DNA of 46,057 nt from positions 1-46,057 of the forward strand of contig QWQH01000090.1 of NCBI GenBank assembly GCA_003670915.1, read 5' to 3'. The translations under genes were made by a program, and so were the position numbers. This document shows, in pieces, positions 39,977 through 46,057 of this stretch. A model generated the notes under the pieces. It made no database searches and was not told where the DNA came from. It saw only the letters and a list, made by a program, of their open reading frames with translations. Positions within the stretch are counted from its first letter, which is position 1. Each line of letters opens with the position of its first letter. This stretch comes from Planctomycetota bacterium (GTDB lineage: Bacteria; Planctomycetota; Planctomycetia; Pirellulales; UBA1268).

Positions 39977-42900
39977 CTATTCGCTTTTGCGTCGGCGATG
40001 CGTTGTACGGGACGCAGGCTGAGCCTCGGGCGCGTGGCTGAAAAAAAAGTCTTCCGCAGCCCATGAACCCGTCGAACTCTTCGCCACGGGCGGCATCGAC
40101 TCGACGGTCGCAGTCTGTGCAATGCGCGTTTGCTTTTTAGAAATCTTCTTAGAAGGTTGCCCGATAAGTTGCCCTGGCGCAGCTACACCGGTGATTGCAG
40201 TCCGAGGAAGCCAGGTCGCGTCTGGCTCACTCAGCGATCGAACGTGGGCCCCAGCATCGCGGAAGATTGTTGCGACATGCGAATGGCAAGTGAGCACAAG
40301 TATTTGTCGCTCACGAGGCTGGTCGGCTGCAAATTCCACCAACACCCGGGCTGCGGCCAAGGCTCTCTTATCGTCGAAGTTCACCAGTGCGTCGTCAATG
40401 ACGACAGGCAGATGTACGCCGTGCCGCTCCAGATCTCGCACCAATGCCAACCGCAACGCTAGAAAAACCTGCTCGCGGGTGCCGCGGCTGAGGCGATCAG
40501 GGCTCCATACCTTGTTGTCGGAGTCGTGGACTTCAAGATGAGCCTCGTGGATAGATGTGGTAATTGAAGTATAGCGGCCCTCGGTGAGCCGCACGAGCCA
40601 CCGCGAGGCTTCTCGAAGCACAGCCGGTTGGTGGTCGCGGGCAACAGTGGCCCGCGTTTCCTCAAGCAGCGTGCGTGCGGTTTCCAACAGGTGACGTCGA
40701 TGGCACTGAGCGTCGAGTGAATGCTCGATGGCGGCGATCTCGACCTGCACACCTTCCGTCGAATGGTCTCGCGAAGCAGCATCAACCCGAGCGGCTGCCG
40801 ACTGGCGGCGATCTTTCGCTCTGGCAATCGCCTGAGTCGCCTCGACGGTTGAAAGATGGGCTTCGGCCAACCGCTGCTCAAGCGAGGTGGTTTTTATTTC
40901 GCTCATCCAACGGTCGAGTTCTGATAGGTCGGACACGCTTCGGCGAGCCTCCAGCCATGCACTTTCGGCGGCCTGTGCTGCGCGACGGGCCTCGTCAATG
41001 AGCGGGCGACGGTCGACAAGCGAGAGGAAATCCTCTTCATTGTCGACGCCCCACCGCACAACGATCTCGTGGACTCTCCGTTCGGCGAGTTTTTCGCGAT
41101 GGACCGCCACGCGATGCCGCTGGCGAGCCCGCACCAGCTTTCGCGTCAGGAGACCACGCCGGCGATGACCCGTTAATTCTAAATCCAAGCGTTCTCGCAA
41201 CTGCTGCAGGTGCTCCAGCGGCGTTGACTCGGGCACCATCTCGCACTCCACCATGAGCTGTTCGATGCGGTGTCCAAGCGAGGTAAGCTCACCGCTGCGA
41301 GCCCTCGCCTCCTCGGAGGCATTCCGTCGATCAAGGTCGAGACGGATCAGCGAGTGGCGGTGGTGAGCAATCTGCCGAACGTCATTGGGGGAGAGTGTGG
41401 CGGGCAAGCCTCGTTGCTCGAGCCCTTTATGCCAGCGACTGCGGGCCACTGAACGGCGGCCCATGGCTTTGGCCAGCGTTTGCTCGGCAGTGGTTACGTT
41501 GTCAGTCAGTAAGTGAAGCGAGCCTTCCCGTGCGGCCATCTCCTCGAGGCGAGCCACTTCGGCACCAGCAGCGATTGCTCGCCGTTCGAGCGAAGCTGTT
41601 GCCTCGACGGGCAGGCGCTCGACCCCAACGCCTGTGCGGTCTAGGAGCGTGCGTTCAGGATCGTTGTGATCGCCGGCAATTCTTTTGTCGAGCAGCCGAC
41701 ATTGCGAGAGCAATTCACCTCGCTGCCTCTGCACCATGTCGTATTGCTGTCGGCTGGCTTCGAGTCGGCCGGTGGCAGTGCGATCCAGCGACCAGGTGGC
41801 TACCGATGCCAAGCCCGTCCCCGCCAGTCCGAGCGCTGCCATCGCATACGCCAGCGAACCCGTGACTGAAGCCGGCAGAAGAAGTCCCGAGAGAAGCATG
41901 CCTGCACCGATCACAAACAGAGCGCCGAGAGCGAGCAGCCACTCAAACGGGATGAGCTGACCTTCTCGCTGTAGCGAGACGTCTTTCTGGAGTCGGGTGA
42001 GTGAGCGGTCGAGGTCCAGCAGTTGTTCGTTAGCGGAGAGCCGATTCCGGAAGAGCAAGGCGAGGCCGCTGGCTTCCTCAATTGCCGCAGCGATTGTCAT
42101 GCCAGGTCGATGGGCTGGCGATCCCGCGGCAAAACCGCTGATCGCGTTGCGAGTGTCGTTGAGAATGCCCTTGATTGCCGCTCCTGCGTGGCGAGCCTCC
42201 TGCACGTCTCGATTGGCTGCGGCCAGTTCTCGGGCACGTTCCTTGAGTGGCGCAAATGAGCGAGTGAACCCCGTGGGCAGAAGCATTTCACCGAGCCTGT
42301 CGATCGAGTGCTCACTCGGATGACTGGCTGCGACGAGCCTCGCCACGCCGGCGGCACCAAGTTGCTCGCCGAAGCGGCGTGCTGCAAGGCGAGAAGCCGA
42401 TTCAGCGCGGCCAGCATCCGAGGCCAATCGTTCCAATCGAGGTTGCTCGTCGCACAACGCCGTTACCGCGACGCGTTTTTTCCAGATGAGTGCATCGGCT
42501 GGTATCGCGGCAAGCAGACGGGCTAGACGGCGACGCTCTCGCTTCTGCTTTCGGGAAACACGCGCCAGCCGATCGCGCTGCTTGCCGGCCAAGAACCACG
42601 TGTCAAGGTCGGCGTGCATCGGAGGTGTGGCCTCGAGGGCCGACAGCTTTTCGGCGACACGCCGCTGCTCGTGGAAGAGCAACTCCAGCGGGAGGGCTTT
42701 CCGGATTGACTGCTCGACGGACTGGGCGCGATGCAGGATGGCTTCAAGTTCGACAATGCCGGTATCGATCTCCGCCAGTTCTGTGCCCAAGCTCCCTGCG
42801 GCAATTGCCGGTGCATTCATGGCAGCGAGCCTTGCGAGTGCTGCGCTGCGGCGTTGGCGCAGGGATTCAATCGGTGATACTTCTGGATCCGAGGAGTTCA

Positions 42901-43471
42901 GACGCTCAACCGCTTCGCGCAGATTCGCGAGCACTCGTGCCACTTGCGAGCGATCGAGGCCGCTGGCCAGTTCGTAGAGACGACTCCCGCATCCCTCGGA
43001 ATCAAGCGTTTGCAGTTCGTGCAGTTCGTCGAGGCCGAAGGCCATGACTGCGGTGAATGTGCTCTCGTCAATTTCACCCATAAAATCTTGCAGGAAGAGC
43101 GTGGTGTTTGTGCGGCCATCTGTTTCAACGACCGTAAGATGGTCGGCAACAGGCACCTCCTGCTGGGATTCATACGTGGCGCGAGTGAGTCGATCTAAGT
43201 GAGGGCCTTCGTGACGGCGATCAATAGAAATCCTGCGTCCATCGACACCCGCGCGGGCCACGAGCGTGCCGCCCCACGGGAGGTGCGGGTCAAGAACCCC
43301 ACGGCGAAACAAACCACCAAATCCAAAGAACACGGCTCGAACGAACTCCAGCAGCGAGGTCTTGCCAGTTTCGTTTGTGCCGTGGAGAACCTGCACGCCG
43401 GTCTGGAGTGCATCGATGGTGACATTGGCTAGCGCCCCAAATCGATCGATTTGAATCCGTTCGATGATCAT
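39977..43471 (-). CDS. YhaN/SbcC-like AAA ATPase with long coiled coil
   Basis: MIIERIQIDRFGALANVTID...LHGTNETGKTSLLEFVRAVFFGF (Walker A), coiled coil, LSRGTREQVFLALRLALV signature and LPVVIDDALVNFDDKRALAAARVL (Walker B). Confidence 0.9.
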   Translation of the reverse strand: MIIERIQIDRFGALANVTIDALQTGVQVLHGTNETGKTSLLEFVRAVFFGFGGLFRRGVLDPHLPWGGTLVARAGVDGRRISIDRRHEGPHLDRLTRATYESQQEVPVADHLTVVETDGRTNTTLFLQDFMGEIDESTFTAVMAFGLDELHELQTLDSEGCGSRLYELASGLDRSQVARVLANLREAVERLNSSDPEVSPIESLRQRRSAALARLAAMNAPAIAAGSLGTELAEIDTGIVELEAILHRAQSVEQSIRKALPLELLFHEQRRVAEKLSALEATPPMHADLDTWFLAGKQRDRLARVSRKQKRERRRLARLLAAIPADALIWKKRVAVTALCDEQPRLERLASDAGRAESASRLAARRFGEQLGAAGVARLVAASHPSEHSIDRLGEMLLPTGFTRSFAPLKERARELAAANRDVQEARHAGAAIKGILNDTRNAISGFAAGSPAHRPGMTIAAAIEEASGLALLFRNRLSANEQLLDLDRSLTRLQKDVSLQREGQLIPFEWLLALGALFVIGAGMLLSGLLLPASVTGSLAYAMAALGLAGTGLASVATWSLDRTATGRLEASRQQYDMVQRQRGELLSQCRLLDKRIAGDHNDPERTLLDRTGVGVERLPVEATASLERRAIAAGAEVARLEEMAAREGSLHLLTDNVTTAEQTLAKAMGRRSVARSRWHKGLEQRGLPATLSPNDVRQIAHHRHSLIRLDLDRRNASEEARARSGELTSLGHRIEQLMVECEMVPESTPLEHLQQLRERLDLELTGHRRRGLLTRKLVRARQRHRVAVHREKLAERRVHEIVVRWGVDNEEDFLSLVDRRPLIDEARRAAQAAESAWLEARRSVSDLSELDRWMSEIKTTSLEQRLAEAHLSTVEATQAIARAKDRRQSAAARVDAASRDHSTEGVQVEIAAIEHSLDAQCHRRHLLETARTLLEETRATVARDHQPAVLREASRWLVRLTEGRYTSITTSIHEAHLEVHDSDNKVWSPDRLSRGTREQVFLALRLALVRDLERHGVHLPVVIDDALVNFDDKRALAAARVLVEFAADQPRERQILVLTCHSHVATIFRDAGAHVRSLSEPDATWLPRTAITGVAAPGQLIGQPSKKISKKQTRIAQTATVESMPPVAKSSTGSWAAEDFFFSHAPEAQPASRTTHRRRKSE

Positions 43472-43577
43472 GGAAAAGGTCTCTGCGGCTCGTGAAGAGG
43501 TCTGAAAAAGTGCAAAAGAAGCGACGGGTTTTTTTCAAGGCAGTGGGGTGCGAAACTGGGCCATAAAACAGTGTCAA

Positions 43578-44819
43578 TCAGCTGGATGCAAGCAGTTCTA
43601 GCGCGATCCAACCGGCCTCGCGAGCTCCCGGATGAACGGCCGTTTTCTCCATTTCAAGGACGATCTCGGCGAGTCCTGAGGCAAAGGAGGCTGCGCCGCC
43701 AGCGTTGCTAGCCGAGGCGTTGCGCACCAGCGTGGCTGGCGACTCGGTCCGATCGGCTTCGAGTTCCTGGCACCACGCTCGGAATGTACGCGGGTCGTAG
43801 AGCGCACGCACCCGTTCCACGGTTTCGACCGAGAGTTCGCCTATATGAACGCGTCGGTTGATGCTGCCGCCACAGTCGATTGCGCATCGCACGATTTGGA
43901 GCGGGGCATCTGCGTCAAGCGACATTCCCTCAAGCGCGCTCCAGATCAAGGCGGCAAGCTCCTCTTCGTCTCCGATAAGAGAGGTGATTGTGAGTGTGCG
44001 CCACGCCACACGGTGGGTTGGCACCTCTCGCCAATCGGTTCGCGGATCGGCTGCAACATGTGGGGCACTCGAGAGGGTTGGCGAACGAGTGGGCAGATTG
44101 GTGAGCGTCGCCACAGCACACAGCCCGGCAGATGCTTCGCGGCCGCTGCGAGCTTGGAGGGCTGAAAGCTGGTGCATGCCAGGAGGCGTTGCCTGAAGAC
44201 TGCGCGAGCCCCAGACAAAAAAGGTACCGTGGGATGATCGGCCATCCGCAGGCAGCGGCGCGTGCAGGCCGTGTGATACTGCCGGCTCCCCATGAAGCGA
44301 GCCCCATGCATCGTCCCATCCGATCACGATGCGACGTTGCGCTGGCAAGAGCGAGGAGTGCGCCGAGGCGAACGACTGAGGCATGCGACCGAAGCCCGTC
44401 GTGGCATAGGCGGGCCCACGCGTGGAGCAAATCTCCACAGACAGCCCTCGCATGTCCAGGCGCAACGGTGACACGGGCGTCACAAAAGAAAGACCCTCAG
44501 GTTCGGCCAGTGCACGCGACACGTTGGCGCAGTCGGCACTCTCATCAGCAACCCAGACCGTGCGGCACCCATCAGCAGCGAGGCTCGTAATCATCGTGCG
44601 CAGGGCCGCGACCTGTGCGGGACTCGATCGGATCGGGTCGAGCGTGTTCCCGAAAAGCACCAAGCCTGCGGCCCGCGTCTGCCGGGCGGTGGAGGCCGCT
44701 GCCTGCAATGCTTCAAAAGGAGCCAGTGCGATGGCATCGGCTACGGGCGAGGGCGCCGCCTCGGGTACGGGAATCGGTCGATCGAGGGCGGCATCAAAGG
44801 CAAAAACGAGGTCGGCCAC
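43578..44819 (-). CDS. Degenerate YhaO/SbcD-like metallophosphoesterase homologue
   Basis: Directly upstream of the YhaN-like gene. N-terminus LVFAFDAALDRPIPV...RAAGLVLFGNTLDPI...CRTVWVADESAD lines up with HAADLHLDSP / LIAGDLYD / VPGNHD motifs; GTG start at 44819. Confidence 0.65.
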   Translation of the reverse strand: MADLVFAFDAALDRPIPVPEAAPSPVADAIALAPFEALQAAASTARQTRAAGLVLFGNTLDPIRSSPAQVAALRTMITSLAADGCRTVWVADESADCANVSRALAEPEGLSFVTPVSPLRLDMRGLSVEICSTRGPAYATTGFGRMPQSFASAHSSLLPAQRRIVIGWDDAWGSLHGEPAVSHGLHAPLPADGRSSHGTFFVWGSRSLQATPPGMHQLSALQARSGREASAGLCAVATLTNLPTRSPTLSSAPHVAADPRTDWREVPTHRVAWRTLTITSLIGDEEELAALIWSALEGMSLDADAPLQIVRCAIDCGGSINRRVHIGELSVETVERVRALYDPRTFRAWCQELEADRTESPATLVRNASASNAGGAASFASGLAEIVLEMEKTAVHPGAREAGWIALELLASS

Positions 44820-45018: not shown

Positions 45019-45756
45019 TTAGCTCGTGAGGGGCGGGGTTGAGGCCCCAAAATCCAGCGCGACCGATGTGGCCCATGCCAGGTCGTTTGTTGCTGGACCG
45101 ATGGCCGCGAGCACTCGGCTGCGGAGGAGAACGCCCTTTTCGACGGTGCTCGAAAAGAGCCAGCATCCGATAGCAACCCGTCCTCTCCGGTGAGTGATCT
45201 CGATGCGTCGCAGGTCGGTTGGATGCACGGCCACAAGGCAGCTGGTGCCGGCATCCCGACGCACAAGGATGCAGTTGGCGGTGGGTGAGGCGTGGCCACT
45301 GAGTTGGAAAGACTCCCCGTGCAGTTCTCCCCACGAGATTGTATTGGCAGCAAGGGTTGAGACAACCGCCAGGCTTGAATCACTCTTCAAAGCCGACGTC
45401 TGAGCCGATACGACGACTTCCCACGCCACGACTTCGTGGTGTGGCTCCATCGCACGGCGTTCTGGATGCAGTCGCCACATGGCCGTTGCCCTCAGGCGTT
45501 GGGCATCTTTGGGTTCGTACACTGCCGTGACGTCGCTGCCTCGCGTCCAGTGGTCGCCGAGGCGGCAGTCCGCAGGAACGTCGATACCCAGAAGATGGTC
45601 GTGGACGTGGTCATGGCGCAGCAGCAGGGCGATGCCTTCTTGTGGGGCGGCGAGGTCGATTGCAGGGGATTCTTGCACAAAATCGCTCTGTCCCTGGCAA
45701 TGCGCACGCTGGTTCACGATCGACCAAGTGTTGGCGGCGGTGGCTTTCGTGGGCAT
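45019..45756 (-). CDS. Conserved-looking hypothetical protein upstream of the MPE/ATPase pair
   Basis: Open frame on the same strand as the two genes downstream; ATG at 45756 chosen from several candidates; no family recognised. Confidence 0.5.
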   Translation of the reverse strand: MPTKATAANTWSIVNQRAHCQGQSDFVQESPAIDLAAPQEGIALLLRHDHVHDHLLGIDVPADCRLGDHWTRGSDVTAVYEPKDAQRLRATAMWRLHPERRAMEPHHEVVAWEVVVSAQTSALKSDSSLAVVSTLAANTISWGELHGESFQLSGHASPTANCILVRRDAGTSCLVAVHPTDLRRIEITHRRGRVAIGCWLFSSTVEKGVLLRSRVLAAIGPATNDLAWATSVALDFGASTPPLTS

Positions 45757-46057
45757 GGAGATAGCCCTGCAACATCCAGGCAGAGAAGAGCACGAAGGAA
45801 AAAGCAAAGGGGTCAAATGAGCGAGGCAGGGAAATTCACTCCCGTACTCTAGCGTCGGTTTTGAATGGTTTCTACGGCGATCGCTCAAAACTGGTTCCAG
45901 AGGCACACCCTGGCGACACGTGAGGCGAGCCGGATTCCAACTCGGCTCAAGCCTCAGGGTTCTAGGAACGAACTGAAGGAGAGGGAGTCAGGAGAATCCT
46001 CGAAGAGATGAAATAGCAACGCACTGAGGCGGTGAGAATGTTGATAGAATCATTCCC

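Follow-up and report, generated by a model that had tools for sequence, protein, structure and literature searches.

The window, a 46,057-nucleotide stretch of DNA from the order Pirellulales, encodes what is probably a Mre11-Rad50-like complex (SbcCD, YhaON). Its Mre11-fold subunit would be a pseudonuclease that is retained for a structural or DNA-binding role, and its ATPase appears to be anchored in the membrane. The fold, the pairing, and the selection persist, although the catalytic residues have been lost. The need for Mre11-type subunits in functions other than cutting is usually probed with point mutants, and this lineage seems to be a natural version of that experiment. In the literature searched, which left most subscription journals outside it, we found no paper describing such a dead-partner pair, and a search for YhaN and YhaO returned no paper with either name in its title or abstract.

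The ATPase and the predicted fold of its partner

The two genes and the conserved elements of the ATPase are as follows.

39977..43471, minus strand: P0001, YhaN/SbcC-like ABC-type ATPase of 1164 aa (Pfam AAA_27, 36.1 bits, cut-off 22)
43358..43381, minus strand: P0001 Walker A, GTNETGKT, residues 31-38 (G31, N33, E34, G36, and K37 invariant in alignment A3)
40469..40492, minus strand: P0001 ABC signature, LSRGTREQ, residues 994-1001 (L994, S995, G997, R999, and E1000 invariant in A3)
40373..40408, minus strand: P0001 Walker B, PVVIDDALVNFD, residues 1022-1033 (P1022, D1026, L1029, V1030, and D1033 invariant in A3)
41786..41947, minus strand: P0001 hydrophobic segment midway along the coiled coil, roughly residues 509-562, probably a membrane hairpin (hydropathy peak of 2.26 at residue 514)
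43578..44819, minus strand: P0002, pseudo-YhaO/SbcD partner of 413 aa with a GTG start (AF2, Foldseek, dN/dS)

A sequence-only reading of this DNA had described the pair, and its coordinates were correct; the open reading frames encode a 1164-aa ATPase and a 413-aa partner, both on the minus strand. It had also credited the ATPase with a Walker A motif, a signature, and a Walker B motif; all three are present, giving P0001 the AAA_27-type architecture of YhaN, and homologues of P0001 occur in all 59 genomes searched. The CxxC zinc hook of SbcCD and Mre11-Rad50 is absent from every ATPase of alignment A3.

The hydrophobic segment of P0001 lies where SbcC/Rad50 carries its hook. Such a segment was seen in 43 of the 43 ATPases of degenerate-partner pairs examined, a count that may represent a single evolutionary event because segment and dead partner are shared by descent, versus 4 of 25 ATPases of canonical-partner pairs. 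All four of the latter come from other classes, and two of them sit on long branches in the ATPase tree, so that their exact position is unsure. Judged by its hydropathy, P0001 appears to be membrane anchored.

Direct searches of Pfam, NCBIfam, and PADLOC gave no family match for P0002. Its AlphaFold (AF2) model (pLDDT 86.2, pTM 0.87) was used in a Foldseek search in which the best 36 PDB matches were all Mre11/SbcD, led by SbcD (6s6v_B; E 1e-6), albeit with moderate structural TM-scores of 0.4-0.6. The model of a Pirellulales relative from Adhaeretor (L199; pLDDT 90.1) likewise retrieved Mre11/SbcD structures first, with Mre11 3av0 at E 4.7e-15. At the profile level, the alignment of the P0002 family (A1) matched that of other Pirellulales (A2) with an hhalign probability of 99.4% (E 7.8e-22, 313 columns), and the order-level Pirellulales profile matched Mre11 1ii7 at E 1.3e-6. 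The profile of the window's family alone had only weak matches among PDB sequences (E 0.015 for the top match, a protein acetyltransferase, and 0.088 for SbcD), and the homology of P0002 therefore rests on the order-level profile and structure. The SbcD family cut-off (TIGR00619, 77.65 bits) was not reached, with no match for P0002 and 35.7 bits for a Pirellulales relative (L082). Profile comparison, AlphaFold, and Foldseek together show, by computation, that P0002 has the Mre11/SbcD fold, in agreement with the SbcCD/YhaNO-like pair originally proposed.

It has to be considered whether the pair is instead an anti-phage defense module of the Lamassu or Gabija type, composed of an SMC-like ATPase and an accessory protein, given that PADLOC matches of P0001 include LmuB (E 2.5e-7), GajA, and PtuA. 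However, these matches fall mostly in the N-terminal ATP-binding region, which is generic to ATPases, and the same scan detected no system-specific second component in P0002. Moreover, unlike patchily distributed defense systems, the pair occurs in nearly every member of its family with conserved synteny, and the ATPase is in every genome searched. On these grounds the defense reading was rejected as quite improbable.

Loss of the active site

The canonical two-metal active site comprises eight residues (D, H, D, N, H, H, H, H). Their positions in P0002 were located by aligning 194 proteins with MAFFT, using an intact YhaO as the anchor, and four motifs are degenerate.

44781..44804, minus strand: motif I, FAFDAALD (canonical HAADIHLD; Asp kept, His to Ala), from alignment with intact YhaO
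44637..44651, minus strand: motif II, GNTLD (canonical GDLYD; bridging Asp to Asn), from alignment with intact YhaO
44535..44546, minus strand: motif III, DESA (canonical GNHD; metal Asn and catalytic His lost), from alignment with intact YhaO
44199..44210, minus strand: motif V, GSRS (canonical GHxH; both His lost), from alignment, register less certain

P0002 keeps one of the eight residues, the first Asp, and so has neither the two-metal site of SbcCD nor the intact phosphoesterase site of YhaO. Against the intact YhaO L083, ADIHI has become FDAAL, GDLFD has become GNTLD, GNHD has become DESA, and GHIH has become GSRS. Motif IV (the H173 equivalent) is lost too, in a poorly aligned stretch, and the registers of motifs IV and V are uncertain in the window's family. 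The four changes that had been picked out by eye are all there as described, except that the GNHD equivalent is DESA, one residue off the DESAD first read. Proper alignment with 193 relatives was used to look for metal ligands elsewhere in the protein, and none were found. P0002 is very probably a pseudonuclease.

Relatives display a graded pattern. In the 42 window-type proteins, the catalytic His is never present, and none has more than two of the four first-metal residues. The 86 proteins of other Pirellulales also lack the catalytic His and the first GHxH His throughout, and the metal Asn persists in 2; the first Asp, motif-I His, bridging Asp, and second GHxH His are retained in 79, 68, 61, and 54 of them, respectively, and all four in 47. 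These four residues form what we take to be metal site 1 of this enzyme family, and a one-metal remnant is therefore the natural reading for the Pirellulales proteins. All eight residues are present in the 48 canonical proteins, a figure that is 100% by construction because possession of all eight defined the group. Since many other residues that are strictly conserved in canonical YhaO persist in the Pirellulales set (e.g., Gly at columns 99 and 416 in 100% and Leu at column 123 in 99%), the ligand loss is targeted.

Degenerate partners were also seen farther afield. Genomes of family f22 of the same class, a family that we assign to Planctomycetaceae by its position within the class and not from a named record, also carry degenerate partners, in which the set of lost residues differs (L290-L297, L299, L301, L302). 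In another class, L304 keeps D, H, D, and the second GHxH His and has lost GNHD and the first GHxH His, possibly through an independent or older loss.

The partner might still be an enzyme, its calcineurin-like fold rebuilt with other ligands or given a new, family-specific activity. Retention of the complete first-metal set in 47 of 86 Pirellulales proteins and a dN/dS of 0.067 for the N-terminal domain are in keeping with this idea, and family-invariant residues such as Q222, W273, C316, and W349 could mark a new site. Nevertheless, those residues are mainly structural in type, no substitute Asp/His cluster occurs at the old positions, and the absence of the catalytic His from all 86 Pirellulales and all 42 window-type proteins also speaks against activity. 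We regard a surviving enzyme as unlikely.

Maintenance, neighborhood, and descent

P0002 is under purifying selection, as evidenced by dN/dS values of 0.107-0.171 in nine pairs (0.128 versus G001, falling to the 0.067 given above over the N-terminal 130 codons of that pair). The partner was found in 33 of 35 same-family genomes, the window's own excluded, and in the other two (G028 and G031) the ATPase sits at the edge of its contig. It is upstream of the same ATPase throughout the window's family and ends at most 150 bp from it in 64 of 65 named loci. In order, spacing, and fold, P0002 is the directly upstream Mre11-fold gene of a YhaO-YhaN pair, although it has no Pfam match. The sequence-only reading had considered the partner to be maintained because its frame is open over 413 codons; maintenance is borne out by selection and by presence across the family, but the open frame itself is weak evidence, as this GC-rich DNA holds many long antisense ORFs.

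Purifying selection and the conserved position upstream of the ATPase argue against local decay. That P0002 is a decaying pseudogene, or the relic of a once active pair, would agree with the stepwise loss of residues and with a partner family that is invisible to Pfam, but dN/dS stays at 0.11-0.17 in the nine pairs, frames are intact in the family matches, and position and gene order are constant across genera. We rejected this reading for these reasons and hold it to be very improbable. Because the active site is lost yet selection and pairing with the ATPase are kept, P0002 probably has a structural role in the complex rather than a nuclease role.

The usual gene order in the window's family (f1, order Pirellulales) is inositol monophosphatase, an unknown protein of ~280 aa, the partner, the ATPase, a 163-aa protein, an AI-2E-type transporter, and a glycosyltransferase. 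One neighbor is itself conserved.

45019..45906, minus strand: conserved upstream neighbor of no known family (invariant EKGV..R.R near the C terminus)

Its product has no match in Pfam, and members of its family precede the partner in most of the same-family genomes examined, as well as in one other family of Pirellulales. In about one-fourth of the other Pirellulales examined, a UvrD-type helicase gene is directly upstream of the pair (L091, L099, L101, L108, L110).

In partner trees from which the ligand columns had been removed, a branch still sets the canonical partners apart, with support of 99.7 when five long or doubtful rows are omitted and of 93 in the full set. In the ATPase tree, the head domains belonging to every degenerate pair (Pirellulales, the window's family, and f22) group in a single clade (99/99) apart from the canonical YhaNO pairs, and within it the ATPases of the window's family are nested in Pirellulales. 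The residue loss is class-wide and old, not a decay local to this gene. The trees suggest that in Planctomycetia a YhaNO-type pair would have lost the catalytic His and the second-metal residues, and that many Pirellulales would have retained the first-metal residues, which the window's family would have lost as well. Six loci (L131, L134, L136, L148, L181, L183) carry the labels Candidatus Kuenenia, Planctomicrobium piriforme, or Nealsonbacteria; their ATPases match Pirellulales relatives, and the assemblies are probably misnamed.

Even if this pair no longer cuts, a cell may still possess such a nuclease, because other intact-GNHD pairs and SbcD-level proteins occur. Many f1 genomes retain another phosphoesterase-ATPase pair with GNHD intact, and a protein above the SbcD cut-off is present in 6 of 60 genomes. 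A second, intact pair was not found in the window's own genome, but the assembly of 2.0 Mb is only 76% complete and may simply lack it. In the second f1 pair (L314:382-1527, L315, L319, L320), motif I reads DWQ or DNH and motif V reads GDWH or GHIH. Several Pirellulaceae (e.g., G049) carry a canonical pair alongside a degenerate one, so that an intact and a dead pair can be compared within one cell.

A proposed mechanism and known systems

Most likely, the two proteins act together as a Mre11-Rad50-like complex that does not cut DNA. The suggestion of the sequence-only reading, a pseudoenzyme scaffold or repurposed SMC-like complex, gains support from fold, residue loss, purifying selection, and conserved pairing. 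In such a complex, the partner would dimerize and cap the ATPase heads in the manner of Mre11, binding DNA or stabilizing head engagement without cutting, while ATP binding would open and close the heads. We hypothesize a membrane-tethering mechanism: because the mid-coil segment would anchor the coil tips in the membrane, the complex may tether or sense DNA (ends, hairpins, or stalled structures) there without degrading it. A more tentative proposal is that such a complex occurs across the planctomycete class: a Rad50-like ATPase anchored in the membrane would be joined to a pseudonuclease Mre11 that was first reduced to one metal, and then to none in the window's family, and the complex would tether or sense DNA. 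For this proposal we see slightly less than an even chance.

Among known systems, SbcCD and Mre11-Rad50 share with this pair the adjacent genes for an Mre11-fold protein and an ABC ATPase, and the fold of P0002 matches SbcD/Mre11. In contrast, P0002 has a single Asp of the active site and lies under the TIGR00619 cut-off, and P0001 has a hydrophobic segment and no CxxC hook. The canonical YhaO-YhaN pairs of Planctomycetota (L083; L255 with L327) have the same gene order and ATPase type, and both proteins are homologous at the profile level. However, none of the eight residues is missing from canonical YhaO, the mid-coil segment is absent from 21 of the 25 ATPases paired with it, and the two kinds of pair form separate clades.

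A precedent for the fate of the partner is Dpb2, representing the B subunits of eukaryotic replicative DNA polymerases, an inactivated calcineurin-like phosphoesterase retained for a structural role in a DNA machine (PMC7308368). Dpb2 differs in having another partner enzyme and no ATPase complex, and its loss of activity was independent. Finally, H85 of Pyrococcus furiosus Mre11 is reported to be essential for nuclease activity (PMC4996933), and human MRE11 H129N, used as a nuclease-dead mutant, differed significantly from the knockout in a complementation assay (PMC10794148). P. furiosus H85S and human H129N are laboratory point mutants, whereas the loss described here is natural, older, and wider.
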